Of a stretch of 33,462 nucleotides of DNA, positions 2,933-23,568 are shown one piece after another. How positions within the stretch are numbered: the stretch's first letter is position 1; the number at the start of each line of letters is the position of its first letter. The notes beneath the pieces were generated by a model. That model was not told the origin of the DNA. It saw nothing but the letters and a program-made list of their open reading frames with translations, and searched no databases. The translations under genes and the position numbers were made by a program. Origin of the DNA: Algoriphagus marincola HL-49 (GTDB lineage Bacteria; Bacteroidota; Bacteroidia; Cytophagales; Cyclobacteriaceae); contig LJXT01000028.1 of assembly GCA_001314815.1 (NCBI GenBank), positions 1 to 33,462 of the forward strand, given 5' to 3'.

Positions 2933-5377
2933 CTATTTCCTCCTCAAAGCCCGTTTCCACCAGGGTAATTGGACTTCTTCATGATAGCCGTAGGAGTTAT
3001 TTCCATAACCGTATCCGTAGCCATAGCCATAGCCGTATCCATAGCCTTTGTCAATATGGACATCATTTAGGATACCATAGATTTTTTTGACTCCGCCTTT
3101 TTCTACCAAATTATTGAGAACCTCAGCATTTCCTTTCATGGAATAGCCCTGACGGAATACAAAGAAACTGATATCAGCATGCTTGAAAAGTTCTTTTGTC
3201 TCAGAGACTATCCCAACAGGAGGACAGTCAAATACCACTATATCATATTCTTGGCGGATTTCTTCAATAATTTGTCCGAATTTATCTTGTAGTAGTAACT
3301 CCGCAGGATTGGGTGGAATCGGCCCGGAAAGGATGATATCTAGGTTTTCGTAACTGGAGGATTTGACGATTTCTTTCCAGGAAGTATCCGAACTCAAGGC
3401 AGTACTCATGCCTTTATCATTGACCAAGCCAAATTCTTCGGCAATTTTTGGCTTTCGAAGGTCCAATCCGATCAAAATGGTCTTTTTGCCCATCAAGGAA
3501 AAGACAGATGCCATATTCATGGAAACGAAGGTTTTTCCCTCCCCTGAGATGGATGATGTAAAAAGAACCGTCATCCTTTCGCGATTGGGACTTAAATAAG
3601 ACATGTCGGCTCTTAGAGAGCGAAAAGATTCTGTAACGGTTGATCTAGGATTTAATAATACCGGCAAATTATCGCCTGTATTACTTCTCCCAATCATGGA
3701 AATCAAAGGTACCTTGATGGCTTTCTCAAGCTCCTTGGGATCTTCTAATTTTGTATTGAGGAAATCTTTTACAGTTATGAAACCTATCGGAAGAATCAAA
3801 CCTAAAATCAAGCCTATCAATAAGTTCAGACTACTTTTTGGAGCTACGGGTGTCTGACCTGCCTTAGCAAAATCCAATATTTTATTCTTTGGCATATTGG
3901 AGGCCATGGTTATTTCCGCCTCGGCCTTCTTTTGAAGCAAATAGATGTAAATATTTTCGTTGATTGTGAATTGACGGGTATAATTCAACAAACTCCTTTC
4001 TGTGGCAGGTAATGCATTTATATCCTGTTCGATCAATCTAATTCGGCCATTGATATCCGAAAGGGTATTTCGTGAGTTTTCAATAGCTGAGCGTACATTT
4101 TCTTTCAAGGCATTTGAAGTGCTTTGAATTCGGGAATTGATATCCCGCATCTGTGGGGTTTGATCATTGAAAGTAGCTGATATCCGGACTCGATCTGCCT
4201 GTAATTCAGAAAGGCTTTCTACTAAGGAGGTCAAAAGAGGATCGGTAACGCCTACGATGGCAGGGGCTACCAAATCTCCCAATTGGTTATTATCCAAATA
4301 GGATTGTAATGTCTGTAGGTATTTGAGGTTTAGCTCAATCTGACTTCTCTCCTGTTCCAAGTCTGTAAGACGCTCAAATATCATAGAGCCCTCTTGAGAA
4401 AGGTTGAAAATTCTGTTTTTAGACCGGAATTCCTGCAATTGGCTTTCTGAATACTCAAGAGAGTCAGATATTCCGCTTAATTGCTGCTCAATAAATCGAA
4501 TCGTATTCTCAGATGCCTGATTTTTTTCATAGAGTTCGCGTTGCAGGTATTCTTCCATCAATTTATTGATGTAATTCTCCCCTAATCTTCTCAGTGGAGT
4601 TTCCATAGAAAGCGTCAAAATAGAAGCTTGCTTGTTAAGCGGATTTGCTTGAAGATCATCCTTCATTTTCAATGCCAGAGAAGGAGTATCTATCAGACGG
4701 AAAAAATAAACCTCTCCAGGCAAGGCTGAAATTAGATTGACTGTGAAAGAATAAAACTCACCCGATACCTCCTGACCAAACTCAAAAACGGATCGAGGAA
4801 GTGAAAACGACTCTAATTTACTTTTATAAAATGGGTCCTTTGGATTGAAAACAGCAAACGCTTCCTCGTCCTCTACGGTAAGTTCAAAGCTCTGCTCATT
4901 CAATACTTCCAATCTAAAAAGTCCTCCCACAACCTGCTCTCTATTCCAATCCACTGCCACATAAACTGGAGTATTTCCATAAATCTGTCGTGGTTTGAAT
5001 ATGTCATCCTGAAAATATGCCACATTCAAATCCATCTCTGAAATGGTAGATTGTGCCAGAGAATAGGATTTTAATATTCCTATTTCATTATCAATATTAC
5101 TTTTATTTTGAAGTCCCAGTCCGGCAGATTCGAAAAGGTCAGCACCTAGTGTAGGTTTATCGTCCACCACCAAAACTGTAGATTCTACTTTATAGATTGG
5201 GGTTGTAAACTTGTTTAACAAAAAGGCTGAAAGCAGGCCAAGAAACATGAAAATCACAATAATTGGCCAATATTGAAGGTAATTAAATAATAATACCTTC
5301 AAATCGATTTCATCCTCTTGCTGTGCTAGAAAAGGATTCGGCTGATTTTGTGGATTAGAAGCAGAATTGGGATACAT
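2933..5377 (-). CDS. wzc: Polysaccharide co-polymerase / tyrosine autokinase (Wzc-type)
   Basis: This inner-membrane protein of 814 residues should control chain length and export of a capsule or exopolysaccharide. The order is Wzz-type N-terminus with a membrane helix at about 38-55, a long periplasmic coiled-coil region (about 260-450), a GNVR-like segment, a second helix at about 512-533, then a cytoplasmic BY-kinase domain. Kinase motifs are Walker A SGEGKT (611-616), Walker A' ILIGLDLRKP (D639) and Walker B YDIVVFDCPP (D717). The C-terminal tyrosine cluster is unusually regular: seven Gly-Tyr dipeptides at about 778-791 plus Y796 and Y798. Its start codon overlaps the upstream wza stop (TAATG), indicating translational coupling. 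The last codon and stop fall in a repeat unit. No cognate phosphatase is in the window. Confidence 0.95.
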   Translation of the reverse strand: MYPNSASNPQNQPNPFLAQQEDEIDLKVLLFNYLQYWPIIVIFMFLGLLSAFLLNKFTTPIYKVESTVLVVDDKPTLGADLFESAGLGLQNKSNIDNEIGILKSYSLAQSTISEMDLNVAYFQDDIFKPRQIYGNTPVYVAVDWNREQVVGGLFRLEVLNEQSFELTVEDEEAFAVFNPKDPFYKSKLESFSLPRSVFEFGQEVSGEFYSFTVNLISALPGEVYFFRLIDTPSLALKMKDDLQANPLNKQASILTLSMETPLRRLGENYINKLMEEYLQRELYEKNQASENTIRFIEQQLSGISDSLEYSESQLQEFRSKNRIFNLSQEGSMIFERLTDLEQERSQIELNLKYLQTLQSYLDNNQLGDLVAPAIVGVTDPLLTSLVESLSELQADRVRISATFNDQTPQMRDINSRIQSTSNALKENVRSAIENSRNTLSDINGRIRLIEQDINALPATERSLLNYTRQFTINENIYIYLLQKKAEAEITMASNMPKNKILDFAKAGQTPVAPKSSLNLLIGLILGLILPIGFITVKDFLNTKLEDPKELEKAIKVPLISMIGRSNTGDNLPVLLNPRSTVTESFRSLRADMSYLSPNRERMTVLFTSSISGEGKTFVSMNMASVFSLMGKKTILIGLDLRKPKIAEEFGLVNDKGMSTALSSDTSWKEIVKSSSYENLDIILSGPIPPNPAELLLQDKFGQIIEEIRQEYDIVVFDCPPVGIVSETKELFKHADISFFVFRQGYSMKGNAEVLNNLVEKGGVKKIYGILNDVHIDKGYGYGYGYGYGYGYGNNSYGYHEEVQLPWWKRALRRK

Positions 5378-6240: not shown

Positions 6241-6777
6241 GGAAAAAAGGCCTAAAAACATCCAAAATTAAATTAGCAAATCAGGGAGTTGAATGTTAAA
6301 AAAGGTAGTTTTTGAACAAAATTTAATTTTGAACACGAAAAAATGTTGATTATTAATGAATATCCGATTATTGGATGAGTTGCAGAAAATTAAAAAAATA
6401 GCTACTTCTGTTATCCTGCTTCTCCAGAAGCTGGATCTTTCTTTTCATCTTCTGTTTTTAGAAGGTCCTACTAGATGAATAACGAATTCTTGCTGGGACC
6501 AGTATTTTGTTTCCATTTCAAAGATCAAGGGCCAGCGCTTGATTATTATTCTTCATTATTTCCATGGGTTGCGCTTCACCTCGTTCCTCGGTTTGCTTAC
6601 CCATGGCTATTCAAAGTTCAACTCCTTTGGAGTTGTATTTGCATCATATTTCGTGCCTTCAGCACTCTTGTATCTCCCCGACTGAAAGGAGGTGTATTTC
6701 GCGACTGAAAGGAGCATATTTCGCCGAAGGCATATTTCAAGAGGCGCAGCCGACTATATCTCGCGACCGAAAGGAGT
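6241..6777. other. Non-coding gap between wza and the acylase gene (region 2 of the repeat family)
   Basis: 6241-6460 is AT-rich unique sequence that should hold the rest of the wza promoter. 6487-6548 is a diverged CTTGCTGGGA...GGGCCAGCGCTTG module. Around 6656-6670 is a GTGCCTTCAGCACTCTT word. 6675-6777 is a chain of GAAATA/GAGATA hairpin units on the minus strand, running into the stop codon of the acylase gene. No gene is supported; short open frames here simply read through the repeats. Confidence 0.7.
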
Positions 6778-8955
6778 TTACTTCCTCCTACCCGGCTGAT
6801 ACTTTTCCTCCATTCTTTTTTCTACGTCTTCTCTATAAAAGGCTACATCCTTAAAGTTCGCATCAGCATATCGCTGGGCTTGATCAAGAAAGTGTGGGGA
6901 CTCGGGATCAGAACTCTGACCCCCTGCCAAAATACTCTTGGCTTTCACCTTTTCTCCAAATTCCACAACGGCTACGAAGCTATTGCCCGAACTTCCATAC
7001 AATGCCTTCGTTCCTTCTTGTCGACTTGCACCATAGGAAGCCAAAGCTCCCCATCTGCCAGAAGCCAAACCAATCGGAATAAATGGTTTGGAGTCATCGT
7101 ATTTCAAATCAATATCTCCACTAAGCCGCTGAAACCGGTTTACTTCTCCCCATGCTAAGTTCCAAGTTCCATAGTCTTCTTTCAATTGCTCCAAGGTCTC
7201 TTGGAAAACTTGAACCATCTCCTGCTGAACATCCGATTTAGAATGCGATTCCAGCACTTCATTTTCTACCAAATCATTTAAATCCCGGAATTGACGCTGA
7301 TAATTAATCCCATAAAAATGAGCCAAGGTCATAGCCTCCGATTCCTTGGAGGTTTTATAATCCCAAACTTTCAAGGTTTGAGTGGCTGCTTGCAAATCAG
7401 CACTTTTTCCATACTTCTCCAAGGCAATCACCAAAGGCGGAATCAAACGCTGAAATGCAGGAATAAGGGGATCATAGGCCAATTCAATAAAGGAATCCAA
7501 ATCTAGATTTTCAGCTTTTGATAACACATCCACTGCATGAATACCGCGGAAATTCTCACGATCCGGAGCCATATAAAAAGGATAATCGGCTTCTTTGGGA
7601 CTGAATTCACCGGCTGCCGTAAAAGGCGTTGAGTTACAGTTTTGAATCCAGTCGGTCGGAGGGTTCAAAATGGTAATACTCTCATCTACAGTATGTAAAC
7701 CCTGCCAGTCAGTTGCAGGATCGGAGCCATCCACAGGCTTGGAATAGTCAAATTGGGGATCTCTTTTTGGGATAAAGTTCCCATGGAAATAAGCGATATT
7801 TCCTTCTGCATCTGCAAATACAGTATTGTTGGACGAGTTAGTCCGGATATCCATCATCTCCCGAAACTCCTCATAATTATCCAGCTTGGTCCGGGTATAA
7901 CTCTGAATTAGGGCATTCACTGGATCCCAATTGATTCGTGTTGCTACCCAGTTTTCTTCGAGTTTGTGAGTAATTGGACCCTGATGAGTTCGATACATGG
8001 TAAATTCCTTAGTCTTGAGGCCCTCCGAGGTTTTGTAGGAGAGTGTCACAGGAACTTCCTCAATTTCCCGTTTTTCATCTCCATATTGATAAAAATACTT
8101 GCCATTTTCTTCGGTGATCTCTTGCTTAAATTCATCGATAAAATCCACTCGTGTGGAGGTATGTATCCATCCCGTTTTCTCATTGAATCCCTGATACACG
8201 AAAAACTGACCCCAGGTCACTGCGCCATAAGCATTTAGCCCTTCCTCGCTTACCACGTGAACTTCAGGTCGAAAATAAAAAGAGGTATGAGGATTGATTA
8301 GCAGCATAGCATTGCCAGACGCGGTCATATCCCCACGGATGGCAATTCCGTTACTTCCCTTCGGCTCTTCATATGGATCAGGATGATTCAATCCATCCCC
8401 AAATTCAGAATAGGCCAAAGCCTTATTTTCTTCATAAAAGGCTTTTATTCGGGAGGTGGGAATTTGCTCTATATCTCCTCCGATGGAACCCTCAAAAAAG
8501 TACATGGGAAACCAAGGCTGATAGCGATCAATAACTTGCGGTTGCACTTCAGGGTGGGTGTGCAGGTAATAATTGACCCCATCAGCAAAAGCCTGACAAA
8601 GCTCTTTCAACCAGTCAGGAGCCTTTTCATATGCTGCTTTTGCTTCTGCTTCTGTCATGTAAAGATTGGCCCGCAAGTCAGAATAAAGCGCCTCCTCTCC
8701 TTCGAGTTCGGCCAATCTACCGGTAGCCCAAATATAGTTTCGCTCTACTCTTCGAAAGTCATCCTCACATTGGGCATAAAGCAATCCAAAAACCGCATCC
8801 GCATCACTTTTTCCATAAATATGGGGCACTCCAAAATCATCCCGGATGATCTCCACCCGTTCCGCTTGGGCTTCCCAATTATCGATTTCATTCGGAGCCT
8901 TACAGGCAAAAACGAAAGAAAGAAAAGCAGCTAAGAATAAGGTAGATCGGAGCAT
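6778..8955 (-). CDS. Penicillin acylase family (Ntn-hydrolase, S45) lipoprotein
   Basis: This 725-residue amidase is predicted to be exported and lipid-anchored (lipobox FVFAC, C18). Family members mature by self-cleavage into alpha and beta chains; the predicted cleavage is before Ser201 in EEPKGSNGIAI, which becomes the catalytic N-terminal nucleophile. The beta chain shows family landmarks: LLINPHTSFYF after the nucleophile, VDFIDEF, and QNCNSTPF. The N-terminal RDDFGVPHIYG is also typical. Relatives cleave acyl-homoserine lactones, aculeacin or penicillins; the substrate here cannot be assigned. The gene is monocistronic on the minus strand. The final AAG TAA (Lys-stop) is contributed by a repeat unit. 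Length and motifs look complete. Confidence 0.92.
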   Translation of the reverse strand: MLRSTLFLAAFLSFVFACKAPNEIDNWEAQAERVEIIRDDFGVPHIYGKSDADAVFGLLYAQCEDDFRRVERNYIWATGRLAELEGEEALYSDLRANLYMTEAEAKAAYEKAPDWLKELCQAFADGVNYYLHTHPEVQPQVIDRYQPWFPMYFFEGSIGGDIEQIPTSRIKAFYEENKALAYSEFGDGLNHPDPYEEPKGSNGIAIRGDMTASGNAMLLINPHTSFYFRPEVHVVSEEGLNAYGAVTWGQFFVYQGFNEKTGWIHTSTRVDFIDEFKQEITEENGKYFYQYGDEKREIEEVPVTLSYKTSEGLKTKEFTMYRTHQGPITHKLEENWVATRINWDPVNALIQSYTRTKLDNYEEFREMMDIRTNSSNNTVFADAEGNIAYFHGNFIPKRDPQFDYSKPVDGSDPATDWQGLHTVDESITILNPPTDWIQNCNSTPFTAAGEFSPKEADYPFYMAPDRENFRGIHAVDVLSKAENLDLDSFIELAYDPLIPAFQRLIPPLVIALEKYGKSADLQAATQTLKVWDYKTSKESEAMTLAHFYGINYQRQFRDLNDLVENEVLESHSKSDVQQEMVQVFQETLEQLKEDYGTWNLAWGEVNRFQRLSGDIDLKYDDSKPFIPIGLASGRWGALASYGASRQEGTKALYGSSGNSFVAVVEFGEKVKAKSILAGGQSSDPESPHFLDQAQRYADANFKDVAFYREDVEKRMEEKYQPGRRK

Positions 8956-9289
8956 GTTTTTGATTTTGGGTGAAAGTTTAAATAAAGTAAATATTGGGAA
9001 ATTTGGCTTAGAAAATTTGAAGGGCGGTTTTTTCTTCTCTCCCTAAGGGGCAAGGATATCTCTCCCGCAAAGGAGAAAAGTAAGAAATATAACTTCGGTG
9101 AAATATGCTTTATGCAATACGCTTTCAGCGAAATACACCATGTGAAATACACATCACTCCGTTCGGTGAAATAAATAGTACTGAAGGCACAGCAAGACAA
9201 AGGCGAAATACGATTTACGAAGTACGATTTACCGCGCATTTTTCTCCAGCAGAGTTCTCAAGAAGCGAAAGAAGAGTGCTGAAGTGCCG

Positions 9290-11160: not shown

Positions 11161-11564
11161 AATATGAAATATGCTTCGCGAAATACACCTTGTGAAATAA
11201 ACCTCACTCCGTTCGGTGAAATACTCTGAATAAATTCATGGTGAAATAAAGAGTGCTGAAGTGCCGTGCGTGATGACCTGTCTACAGAAGGTAGGCACGA
11301 ACGGCGGCCAGCCGGAAATATGCTCCTTTTCAGTCGCGAAATAAAGTCGGCTTCGCCTCCTGAAATATACCTTCTTTCAGTTGGTGAGACAGGCCTTATA
11401 TCTTGGCGCAGCCATATCTTTCTTTATCTGATAAGCTATCTTTTATTCCTTTGCTGAATTGAAGGGGTAAGATTTTCGATACGTCCTATGCCTTTTTTGA
11501 CTTAAAAATACTCCTCTGAATGCATTCTTTTCAATGGACGTTTTAATTTCGAATGATAAATTAT
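11161..11564. other. Repeat array and tail between convergent genes (region 4)
   Basis: 11165-11245 is a chain of plus-strand GAAATA units, including GAAATACACCTTGTG at 11180-11194, closely matching 9130-9180. 11250-11310 holds GTGCTGAAGTGCCG fused to the GTGATGACCTGTCTAC hairpin module, a combination not seen elsewhere in the window. 11316-11400 has more GAAATA units. 11401-11564 is ordinary AT-rich sequence between the convergent aldolase and aldo/keto reductase genes. The open frame at about 11266-11457 lies within repeats and is not credible. Confidence 0.7.
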
Positions 11565-20811: not shown

Positions 20812-23568
20812 TTAAAGTGTCGGTAATAATACTCCGTCGATGACATGGACTACTCCATTTTCAATCGCGACATCTGCTGCTACTACATTGTATGTATTTC
20901 CAGCCGAATCTGTCACAGTGACATTCGCTCCAGTTCGGGTTACTGTCAGGTCCTCTCCAGCAAGCGTAGGCACGGTCTGCTCACCTTCAGCAAGGTCGGT
21001 AGAGAAAGCAACTGCAGGAACTACGTGGAAGCCAAGTACTTTCTGTAATCCTTCCAAACCGATTGCATCGATCAATTCATCAAGATCAGCTACTCCAAGT
21101 GTGCCCAAAAGATCTACAAAGGCATCGTTGGTAGGAGCGAATACGGTGATTGCTTCTGCATCAAGCAAAGTTTGTCCAAGTCCGGCAGCAGTCACAGCGT
21201 CCAATAGGACCGTCAAACCAGCATCTGTAGCAGCTTCAACTACATTTGGAAGATCTTCTTCAGGCAATAATACTCCATCGATGACGTGAACTACTCCATT
21301 TTCGATCTCTACATCTGCAGTTACCACGCTGTATGTGTTGCCTCTTCCATCTGTGACAGTCACCGCATCTCCATTACGAGTTACAGTCAAATCCTCTCCG
21401 GCAAGTGTAGGGACAACCTGGTCTCCTTCAGCCAAATCAGCTGCAAAGGCAACTGAAGGCACCACATGGAAACCAAGTACATCCTGCAGACCTTCCAGTC
21501 CGATGGCATCGATCAATTCATTGAGATCAGCTACTCCAAGCGCATCCAATAAGTCTACAAAAGCATCATTAGTAGGTGCGAAAACAGTGATTGCTTCTGC
21601 ATCCAATAGCGTTTGACCAAGACCAGCAGCAGTAACGGCATCCAAAAGAACAGTAAGACCTGCAGCTTCTGCAGCTTCAACTAGATTCGGTACATCTGGC
21701 TCATTCGCAGTAGGTAAAACCACTCCGTCGATTACGTGAACAACACCATTTTCGATCGCTACGTCAGCAGCTACTACATTAAAGGTATTTCCTCTAGCAT
21801 CAGTCACGGTCACATTGGCACCTGTACGAGTCACTGTCAAGTCCTCACCAGCCAAAGTAGGAACAGTCTGTGCTCCTTCGGCCAAGTCAAAAGAGAAGGC
21901 AGTAGCAGGCACTACGTGGAAACCAAGGATTCTTGTAACTTCTTCGATTCCAACAGCAGCAACCAATTCCTGTAGAGAACCTAAGTTCAATGCAGCCAAA
22001 AGATCAAGGAAAGCTTGATTGGTTGGAGCAAATACGGTGATCGCTTCAGCATCAAGAAGCGTTTGACCAAGGTCAGCAGCAGTTACTGCATCCAAAAGAA
22101 CTGTCAAATCAGCTGCTGTAGCTGCTTCTACTACATTTGGAAGCGAGAACTCAGGCAATAACACACCGTCGATCACGTGAACGACTCCGTTTTCGATGGC
22201 AACATCTGCTACTACCACATTTGCTGTATTTCCCAAAGCATCTGTTACAGTCACACCACTTTCACCGGCTTCTACTGTCAACTCCTGACCTGCGAGAGTC
22301 GTGAAAGTATTGGTAGCTTCCAGATCTGTAGAGAAAGCTACTGCAGGTACTACGTGGAAACCCAAGATAGTCTGAAGATTTTCGATTCCTCCGATTTTAG
22401 CAACCAATTGGTCTAAATTCTCAGCATCATAAGCTGCCAAAGCAGCGGCAAAGGCATCATTGGTTGGTGCAAAAACAGTCATTGCTTCTGCGTCTAATAG
22501 TGTTTCGCCCAAATCAGCTGCTGTTACAGCGTCCAGCAGAGTAGTCAATCCGGCGCTTTGCGCAGCTTCTACCACGTTTGGAAGCATCAAATCAGGGAGC
22601 ATTACACCGTTGATCACATGGACTACACCATTTGCAATTTCAATATCCGCTGCAACCACCTGCGCTGTACGTCCTAGTTGATCGGTAACAGTCACAGTAC
22701 CTCCGGCGACTTCAACAGTAATTTCCTGTCCGGATACGGTTGTGAAAGTATTGGTAGGCTGTAGATCGCCTGAAAAGGCTACTGCAGGCACTACATGGAA
22801 TCCAAGGACAGTTTCTAAGTTTTCGATACCTCCGATTTTCAGAACCAATTCATCTAAGTCAGCTGCATTGAATACTTCTAAAGCAGCAGCAAAAGCTTCA
22901 TTGGTTGGAGCAAAAACAGTGATAGCTCCAGCTGAAAGCAGCGTATTTGCCAATCCATCAACTGCGGTCACCGCATCTAGCAAAGTAGTAAGACCAGCCT
23001 CTGTAGCGGCTTCCACAAGATCTGGAGCAGGCAAATCAATAGAAGGTATCAAAACTCGGTCAATCACATGGACTACTCCGTTTTCGATTTCCACATCAGC
23101 CTGTACCACTCGAGCCGTGTTTCCAGCAGCATCGATTACAGTTACGATACCTGGAGCACGGTTTACTACTAATTGCTGACCCGCTAATGTGGTCACAACA
23201 TTGGTTTCTTCAAGCTGATCCGAGAAAATGGTGTTTGGGACTACGTGGAAACCAAGGATTGTTTCCAGATTCATTGGACCACCGATTTTTTCTACCAAAT
23301 CATCCAAATCAGTCGCTCCAAACTCAGTCAAAGCATTCGCAAACGCATCGTTGGTTGGGGCAAAAACAGTAATTGCGCTTTGCGCTTGCAAAGTCGCTTC
23401 CAACCCGGAAATAGCCCGAATGGACGTCACTAGAGTGGTCAAACCGGCATCCTCAGCCGCCTCTATGAGCGTGGGATAAGGTAAAGGGCCTTGATAGTCT
23501 TCATTCTCACAGGCGACGAATGAAAAAAAGACGACCCCAACTAAAAGGTACTTTAAGAGTTTTGTCAT
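20812..23568 (-). CDS. Six-domain fasciclin (FAS1) lipoprotein
   Basis: A 918-residue surface or periplasmic lipoprotein (FSFVAC, C20) made almost wholly of six FAS1 domains of about 147-148 residues each. Each has the VFAPTN(D/E/Q)AF box and ends in NGVVHVI(D/N)GV. FAS1 domains mediate adhesion and protein-protein contacts in matrices. At DNA level the units recur with a 441-base period (for example 21119 versus 21560). The C-terminal domains 5 and 6 are nearly identical, whereas domain 1 is most diverged, suggesting stepwise duplication or homogenisation from the 3' end. It is acidic and Lys/Arg-poor. It is a single-gene unit between two terminators. Confidence 0.95.
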   Translation of the reverse strand: MTKLLKYLLVGVVFFSFVACENEDYQGPLPYPTLIEAAEDAGLTTLVTSIRAISGLEATLQAQSAITVFAPTNDAFANALTEFGATDLDDLVEKIGGPMNLETILGFHVVPNTIFSDQLEETNVVTTLAGQQLVVNRAPGIVTVIDAAGNTARVVQADVEIENGVVHVIDRVLIPSIDLPAPDLVEAATEAGLTTLLDAVTAVDGLANTLLSAGAITVFAPTNEAFAAALEVFNAADLDELVLKIGGIENLETVLGFHVVPAVAFSGDLQPTNTFTTVSGQEITVEVAGGTVTVTDQLGRTAQVVAADIEIANGVVHVINGVMLPDLMLPNVVEAAQSAGLTTLLDAVTAADLGETLLDAEAMTVFAPTNDAFAAALAAYDAENLDQLVAKIGGIENLQTILGFHVVPAVAFSTDLEATNTFTTLAGQELTVEAGESGVTVTDALGNTANVVVADVAIENGVVHVIDGVLLPEFSLPNVVEAATAADLTVLLDAVTAADLGQTLLDAEAITVFAPTNQAFLDLLAALNLGSLQELVAAVGIEEVTRILGFHVVPATAFSFDLAEGAQTVPTLAGEDLTVTRTGANVTVTDARGNTFNVVAADVAIENGVVHVIDGVVLPTANEPDVPNLVEAAEAAGLTVLLDAVTAAGLGQTLLDAEAITVFAPTNDAFVDLLDALGVADLNELIDAIGLEGLQDVLGFHVVPSVAFAADLAEGDQVVPTLAGEDLTVTRNGDAVTVTDGRGNTYSVVTADVEIENGVVHVIDGVLLPEEDLPNVVEAATDAGLTVLLDAVTAAGLGQTLLDAEAITVFAPTNDAFVDLLGTLGVADLDELIDAIGLEGLQKVLGFHVVPAVAFSTDLAEGEQTVPTLAGEDLTVTRTGANVTVTDSAGNTYNVVAADVAIENGVVHVIDGVLLPTL

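Follow-up and report, generated by a model that had tools for sequence, protein, structure and literature searches.

Arrays in the window

The window, i.e. the whole stretch of 33,462 nt analysed here, is contig C100 of a genome of 3.8 Mb in 190 contigs (hereafter the window genome). It carries arrays of a six-base head, GAAATA or GAGATA, iterated on one strand (Table 1). Thirty same-strand GARATA neighbours lie 10-25 bases apart, against a mean of 0.69 (maximum 4) in 100 dinucleotide shuffles, and 24 of these 30 are spaced at 14, 16, 22 or 24 bases with a hairpin-like insert, against 0.06 (maximum 1). The four arrays reported in a preliminary description of this DNA all lie where it placed them; 79 bases of unrelated sequence (2739-2817) split the region 2588-2939 into arrays 1 and 2, the latter overlapping the 3' end of the wzc-like gene (2933-5377). 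Array 4 also includes the off-by-one heads GCAATA and GAAGTA. The stems quoted earlier are present in the sequence, namely CAC-CAT-GTG (9130-9144), CAC-CTT-GTG (11180-11194), CGCT-TTC-AGCG (9120-9130) and, on the minus strand, CAC-TTT-GTG (2923-2909) and CGCC-TTC-GGCG (2909-2894). The quoted TGC/GCA stem (9100-9115) is a weaker case, the following head being GCAATA, one base off. In place of the earlier figure of about 15-24 bases, unit lengths fall into classes of 10/11, 14, 16, 18, 22 and 24/25 bases.

Table 1. Head arrays identified in the window
Feature	Position	Strand	Heads and units	Context
Array 1	2588-2738	minus	8 heads GAAATA/GAGATA; units of 14, 24, 16, 22, 22, 24 and 23 bases	3' of the minus-strand wzc-like gene
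Array 2	2818-2939	minus	7 heads, including CACTTTGTG and CGCCTTCGGCG hairpins	
Array 3	6647-6784	minus	6 heads, 6762 down to 6652; off-by-one head GAAGTA near 6784	
Array 4	9084-9232	plus	heads at 9084, 9100, 9130, 9144, 9168, 9205	
Array 5a	11166-11248	plus	heads at 11166, 11180, 11194, 11218, 11243	
Array 5b	11315-11385	plus	heads at 11315, 11338, 11362; 24-mer insert AAGTCGGCTTCGCCTCCT	
AAGATA-headed triple	11399-11442	minus		sister family

Some other features are present in the window. An Rfam scan gave a match to Acido-Lenti-1 (RF01687) at 2539-2583 (45.2 bits), adjoining array 1, and pieces near this match (AGAGTGCTGAAGTGCCG / GTGCCTTCAGCACTCTT) are found again within or close to arrays 1, 3, 4 and 5. 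The wzc-like gene encodes a C-terminal (Gly-Tyr)n tail (2990-3050, minus strand), and six-base repeats that are nearly exact lie directly ahead of array 2. Finally, a 918-aa protein encoded at 20812-23568 on the minus strand contains several similar repeats that by eye resemble fasciclin domains.

Unit grammar and stem covariation

Head-to-head distances are quantised at 10/11, 14, 16, 18 and 21-25 bases (a backward-hexamer control gives 0-5 per length). The commonest spacing is 10/11 bases, and the 14-base class is over-represented because the loci were fetched with a 14-base unit between two heads. Units of 10/11 bases contain no hairpin, their inserts usually ending in T plus one base; all longer units are mini-hairpins. 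The hexamers found repeated on both sides of hairpins are GAAATA (106 distinct units), AAGATA (13) and GAGATA (11), and the other flanking hexamers with at least 8 units are shifted or opposite-strand readings of these three.

Covariation of the stems was judged with scripts against shuffled and slid controls. In 73 distinct 24-mers with seven pairs, 64% of the stem cells are Watson-Crick in register, compared with 18-31% when slid by 1-3 bases. Pairs 2-18, 3-17, 4-16, 7-13 and 8-12 are formed in 57, 54, 59, 46 and 60 of the 73 units, the corresponding shuffled means being 35, 22, 28, 21 and 41. When the set is reduced to 25 representatives with at least 6 differing bases, 61% of cells are Watson-Crick against 19-29% slid; pairs 3-17, 4-16 and 7-13 exceed every shuffle, and 2-18 and 8-12 do not. 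Several stem columns covary with all four pair types. Units of 14, 16, 23 and 25 bases display the same covariation at most pairs, and the 18 distinct 18-base units display it clearly at the innermost pair only. That the stems differ and keep pairing behind a constant head, as the preliminary description had proposed, thus holds far above both kinds of control.

Hairpin position 1, which faces the invariant G of the following head, is T in 34 of 73 24-mers and in 32 of 72 16-mers. Under GAAATA it is C 38, T 47, A 18 and G 10 times, and under AAGATA T 11, A 5, C 4 and G 2 times; pairing of this position with the head is only hinted at.

The loops and mismatches also follow rules. Triloops are T-N-C in 109 of 172 cases (N = T 79, G 15, A 12, C 3), mostly closed by a C-G pair. 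An unpaired TC stands opposite another TC at mirrored positions in 43 of the 73 24-mers, the three registers accounting for 20, 18 and 5 units, whereas re-dealing the halves gives an expectation of 16.9 (maximum 29); eleven other dinucleotides are mirrored in this way in 0-1 of the 73 each. Read on the opposite (TATTTC) strand, the T-N-C loops become G-N-A and TC/TC becomes tandem GA/GA. C(GNA)G is an extra-stable type of DNA mini-hairpin, and since these loops and the GA/GA tandem mismatch are on the TATTTC strand, this would be the likelier folded strand. TC/TC is commoner where the head is on the coding strand (23 of 27 sense versus 11 of 29 antisense among hairpin-filtered units); the difference is smaller without the hairpin filter (30 of 56 versus 12 of 40, four groups summed), so no weight is placed on it.

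Distribution in the genome and in related lineages

A triple-head pattern has 78 matches in the window genome against 0 for the backward-read pattern, and a double-head pattern 190 against 15. Copy number is patchy, from 1 to 93 triple-head matches per genome among 36 genomes of the genus, where the window genome, G007, G035, G025 and G005 are rich and G009, G015, G021, G022 and G028 poor, and is mostly near control level in 22 genomes from other families of the same order. In a scan of named genomes, the 14-base unit between two heads was found in at least 113 stretches. Among the matches listed, 70 of 80 loci carry the name of a genus of Cyclobacteriaceae (Algoriphagus, Belliella, Indibacter, Mongoliibacter, Mongoliitalea, Cecembia, Aquiflexum, Cognataquiflexum, Arthrospiribacter, Litoribacter and Lunatimonas, all of which we take to belong to this family), 8 belong to records that name no genus (uncultured, Cytophagales or Bacteroidetes), and two candidate-phylum loci (L151 and L170) were left out as probable chance matches. 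The GAAATA-headed hairpin units are a real, sizeable and genome-wide repeat family of the aquatic Cyclobacteriaceae, far above chance. The preliminary description knew of no named family of this design, and no Rfam family reaches its gathering threshold on the units. We did not find the repeat grammar described in the best-ranked papers of one open-access full-text library, and as far as this search shows the family, with its unusual grammar, is apparently undescribed.

A sister family is headed by AAGATA. Triples of this head are present in 20 of 59 genomes of the genus, most of them in relatives G075 (32) and G071 (30), with three in the window genome. It has the same syntax and hairpin modules as the GAAATA family, including TC/TC in 19 of 35 AAGATA-headed 24-mers. 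Most heads within one array are of a single kind; one array (L043, 4523-4790) mixes TATCTT and TATTTC heads. At one dapA-like operon junction the arms are GAAATA-headed in the window genome and AAGATA-headed in relative G069, with flanks that are 95% identical.

Array layout and gene context

In its complete form an array has two inward-facing arms around a centre in which no conservation is visible by eye. Among 230 arrays, 60 are two-sided and inward, 6 outward, 146 one-sided and 18 with more direction changes. They are mostly intergenic, 26 of the 230 overlapping an ORF of at least 110 aa by over half. Both neighbouring genes are known for 205 arrays and are co-directional in 154 cases, convergent in 30 and divergent in 21, compared with 260, 61 and 89 for 410 spacers of at least 60 bases in the same loci, indicating a mild preference of the arrays for spacers of co-directional genes.

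Arrays fill spacers of the his operon, of cysD-cysN and of a dapA/aldehyde dehydrogenase/proline racemase operon (gene names assigned by eye). In 71 homologous tandem junction pairs between differently labelled genera, arrays are present in both members of 40, in one member of 13 and in neither of 18. The 40 pairs stem from 13 distinct junctions and are not independent, the junction set was fetched by the array pattern and is therefore biased, and two of the 40 compare the window genome with Algoriphagus, very likely the same genus. All 12 divergent homologous pairs are without arrays. In one operon, arrays occupy one junction in four genera or labels and another in five. The shared spacers align in part; for example, Belliella and Indibacter are 97.6% identical over a stretch of 82 bases, while their neighbouring genes are 81-90% identical. 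More ORF families recur in array-bearing loci of different genera.

The hisF-hisI spacer, sampled by gene in 21 genomes and classified by eye, holds GAAATA arms in 10, AAGATA-like arrays in 6 and neither in 5. In his spacers (L118-L137), the same spacer is occupied by different word-repeat families depending on the species (GAAATA, AAGATA, TTTACGA, AACCTTTGAGG, GACCGAAGA, CATCGGACACCGGA and GAATATCGAATAATGAA), several of which have inverted arms.

Evolution of orthologous copies

Orthologous copies were compared in a small sample of 33 pairwise spacer comparisons from overlapping species pairs, giving 171 stem-pair cells. Of these, 114 are unchanged Watson-Crick pairs and 31 unchanged and unpaired. 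A single change broke the pair in 9 cells and created it in 7, 4 cells still pair after changes on both sides, and 6 are others. Three of the four double-changed cells sit in units that appear to have been exchanged or to have diverged heavily, leaving about one plausible compensation. Single pairs are thus broken about as often as they are made, with hardly any compensation, which runs against the earlier view that the covariation reflects selected (RNA) structure. This scarcity suggests that the family-wide covariation does not arise from compensation at each site; with decay in situ and covariation across the family, pairing must be kept in the pool that supplies the copies.

Divergence between orthologs is 9.6% at paired hairpin positions, 16.2% at other hairpin positions, 16.1% in the 10/11-base inserts and 6.7% in flanks, which were chosen for good local alignment; the 3.3% of the heads is biased low because heads defined the units in one sequence. 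Whole units are also gained and lost: array 2 of relative G069 has one extra 14-mer and lacks others, and array 4 is partly conserved there. Inspection by eye of the 430 bases 3' of the wzc-like gene shows an array in 3 of the 8 relatives that have sequence there; 3' of the acylase-like gene, 3 of 11 have one. In G071 and G075 (L255 and L256), the region 3' of the wzc-like gene holds higher-order tandem repeats in which the module consists of three units with GAAATA heads, and one module at this locus in G075 has AAGATA heads instead.

Signatures of RNA and DNA

The arrays might be selected as intercistronic RNA, with inward arms pairing (GAAAUA/UAUUUC) and hairpins projecting, and setting mRNA processing, stability or translation. 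Their recurrence at co-directional junctions across genera (both members of 40 of the 71 pairs, and the two junctions of one operon described above) and their avoidance of divergent neighbours (a divergent setting for 21 of 205 arrays and for 89 of 410 spacers) speak for this. Moreover, the one two-armed element folded is more stable than its shuffles (z -2.3 to -4.7), with RNA values of -2.6 and -4.7 for its two strands.

The array at 2601-2738 of the window, in contrast, is on neither strand more stable than its shuffles, whether folded as DNA (z 0.42 and 0.48) or as RNA (z 0.47 and 0.85). Inside the stems of the hairpin-like units (209 of 268), G.T is found 24 times against 87.9 expected and A.C 28 times against 85.4; position 1 is outside this count because the opposing G is invariant, and a T there would make a G.T pair with it on the head strand. 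When the units in tandem gene pairs are divided according to the transcribed strand, 12 G.T and 13 A.C are counted in sense units and 7 and 11 in antisense units, so that G.U is not in excess over A.C on the transcribed strand. One-sided arrays between co-directional genes have no sense bias either (45 sense, 57 antisense). The equal avoidance of G.T and A.C, the missing strand preference and the shuffle-level fold of the window array together disfavour selected RNA and give no support to the reading of the units as structure selected in RNA. The hairpins also decay in situ, and arrays are missing in most relatives at two window sites. As for the junctions, the bias and non-independence of the sample weaken the argument, and inherited sites with fast unit turnover would also explain the recurrence, some shared spacers still aligning in part. 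An RNA selected at these junctions is unlikely; with no G.U tolerance on the transcribed strand and about one plausible compensation among orthologs, the arrays do not show the signature of a structured cis-RNA.

Mobility and comparison with known repeat systems

The arrays resemble REP, BIME and REPIN elements, which are characterised in PMC6006769 and PMC3733652 as short intergenic hairpins with a constant unpaired foot tag and varying stems, occurring in inverted doublets and clusters at high and patchy copy number. The units here are short intergenic palindromes with a constant 5' tag (head plus hairpin, 14-25 bases), and inverted doublets predominate (60 inward against 6 outward). The tag differs, being GAAATA, GAGATA or AAGATA instead of GTAG/GTGG or CGTC, and unlike REP elements the arrays hold many tiny hairpins each (8-19-base inserts), a six-base head and the mirrored TC/TC.

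According to the same sources, REP elements flank their cognate Y1 (RAYT) genes, with an atypical Bacteroidetes subclass 2.6 (PMC6006769, PMC3733652). The window genome has eight Y1 transposase matches, seven of which resemble by motif the atypical Bacteroidetes subclass or subclass 1.2. No array was found at these eight loci in flanks of roughly 1.5 kb, or less where two of the loci reach a contig end, nor at 28 Y1 matches in six relatives, where three loci hold one isolated head doublet and one locus has no recognisable Y1 frame. Linkage of the REP/RAYT kind was accordingly rejected for the genes found, with 0 arrays at 36 Y1 matches in seven genomes. Other repeats do flank Y1 genes in the window genome: the RAYT-like genes (NHFH, YIHHNP/YIHQNP) of L039 (C113) and L040 (C131) are flanked on both sides by AACCTTTGAGG...CCTCGAAGGTT / AACCTTTGAGGT...ACCTCGAAGGTT. 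This repeat also sits in his operon spacers, and a Y1 gene of the subclass 1.2 type (L034, C70) is flanked by GTGCCTTTGGCAC / CTGAAGGGGCGA / TTGAAATACCGATAG repeats. As the window genome is 93.8% complete, a cognate gene may have been missed; REP-like behaviour together with the failed linkage would mean that the putative enzyme was missed or is of another kind.

The arms of the arrays are inverted, but comparison of orthologous sites by eye revealed no clean empty site with a target duplication and no parent transposon, and none of the 22 largest ORF clusters beside arrays, many of which are shared operons, was recognised by eye as a transposase. The first window array has no match in phages and plasmids, and the 14-base unit between two heads has none in viral contigs; the same contigs gave no match to the pattern of a TGAAATT-headed look-alike from Clostridia. 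Nothing found here makes the units decayed pieces of one known repeat or IS, an outcome that the preliminary description had named as refuting it.

BrickBuilt, a MITE of Porphyromonas gingivalis with an internal minisatellite, also has tandem short units inside an inverted-repeat element, and is, like the arrays, intergenic, found in Bacteroidota, variable in unit number and without Rfam match. It repeats one 23-base unit (PMC4596501), whereas here length and stem vary and the head and grammar are constant. The TAACTGA repeats of Beggiatoaceae, Cyanobacteria and a few Bacteroidetes share an iterated short head word in mostly intergenic positions; according to PMC4679880 they are arranged as direct repeats, lie for the most part upstream of start codons in the main genome of that study, and have no predicted RNA structure. 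Heads here are instead spaced by hairpins and have no orientation to genes. Integron attC sites are conserved in structure, variable in sequence and read as a folded single strand; they are far larger than the present hairpins.

Interpretation

The family most probably (about 0.55) consists of short non-coding interspersed DNA repeats of Cyclobacteriaceae, REP/REPIN- or MITE-like, whose hairpin matters as DNA during spread. An array is an iterated RARATA head (GAAATA, GAGATA or AAGATA) separated by 4-5 hairpin-free bases or by an exchangeable mini-hairpin. Copies may spread via a step that reads the hairpin as DNA, single-stranded or cruciform, in which a putative protein would recognise both hairpin and head; this step would keep pairing in the pool of units, and inserted copies would decay. 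Of the three roles suggested in the preliminary description, the parasitic DNA repeat fits best and the structured 3' RNA is the weakest, the protein-binding array lying in between.

Random spread alone does not predict that junctions recur across genera, which counts against a purely mobile repeat, and the recurrence at some operon junctions makes an intercistronic function possible. A modular intercistronic DNA element, doubtful on present evidence, would have its identity in its syntax: head, hairpin modules and arm layout would be inherited separately, the head of a whole array would be exchangeable at a conserved junction, a candidate protein would read head and folded hairpin, and the element would have a lasting role in operon expression.

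Still less probable is a binding array in double-stranded DNA, in which the head is the protein site, 11-base units keep one helix face and hairpins are mere spacers. The predominance of the 10/11-base spacing, the single head kind of most arrays and the low divergence of the heads (which defined the compared units) are in line with it, but spacings of 14 and 16 are out of helical phase, mere spacers need no covarying stems, fixed loops or TC/TC, and the L043 array mixes heads.

Stems could also be formed with no structural selection, by quasipalindrome templating (template switching) that copies stem arms and slippage between heads that multiplies units. Inside stems Watson-Crick pairs alone are kept, alike on both strands, units are gained and lost whole, and G071 and G075 have tandem higher-order arrays, all as expected from such a process; yet it should erase the mirrored TC/TC, which persists in 43 of 73 units and at three registers, the loss of a pair is about as frequent among orthologs as the gain of one, and the process leaves the spread to dozens of sites unexplained, so that we regard it as improbable. 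A CRISPR is unlikely with a six-base repeat and re-used self-complementary inserts.

Read as interspersed DNA repeats, the arrays present strong stem covariation that seemingly originates from the pool of repeat units and not from site-level RNA selection, which makes them a trap for covariation-based RNA discovery. Since an array with another head and the same layout can occupy the same junction in a sister species, pairs of close species could reveal how the arrays are copied and which protein reads them.
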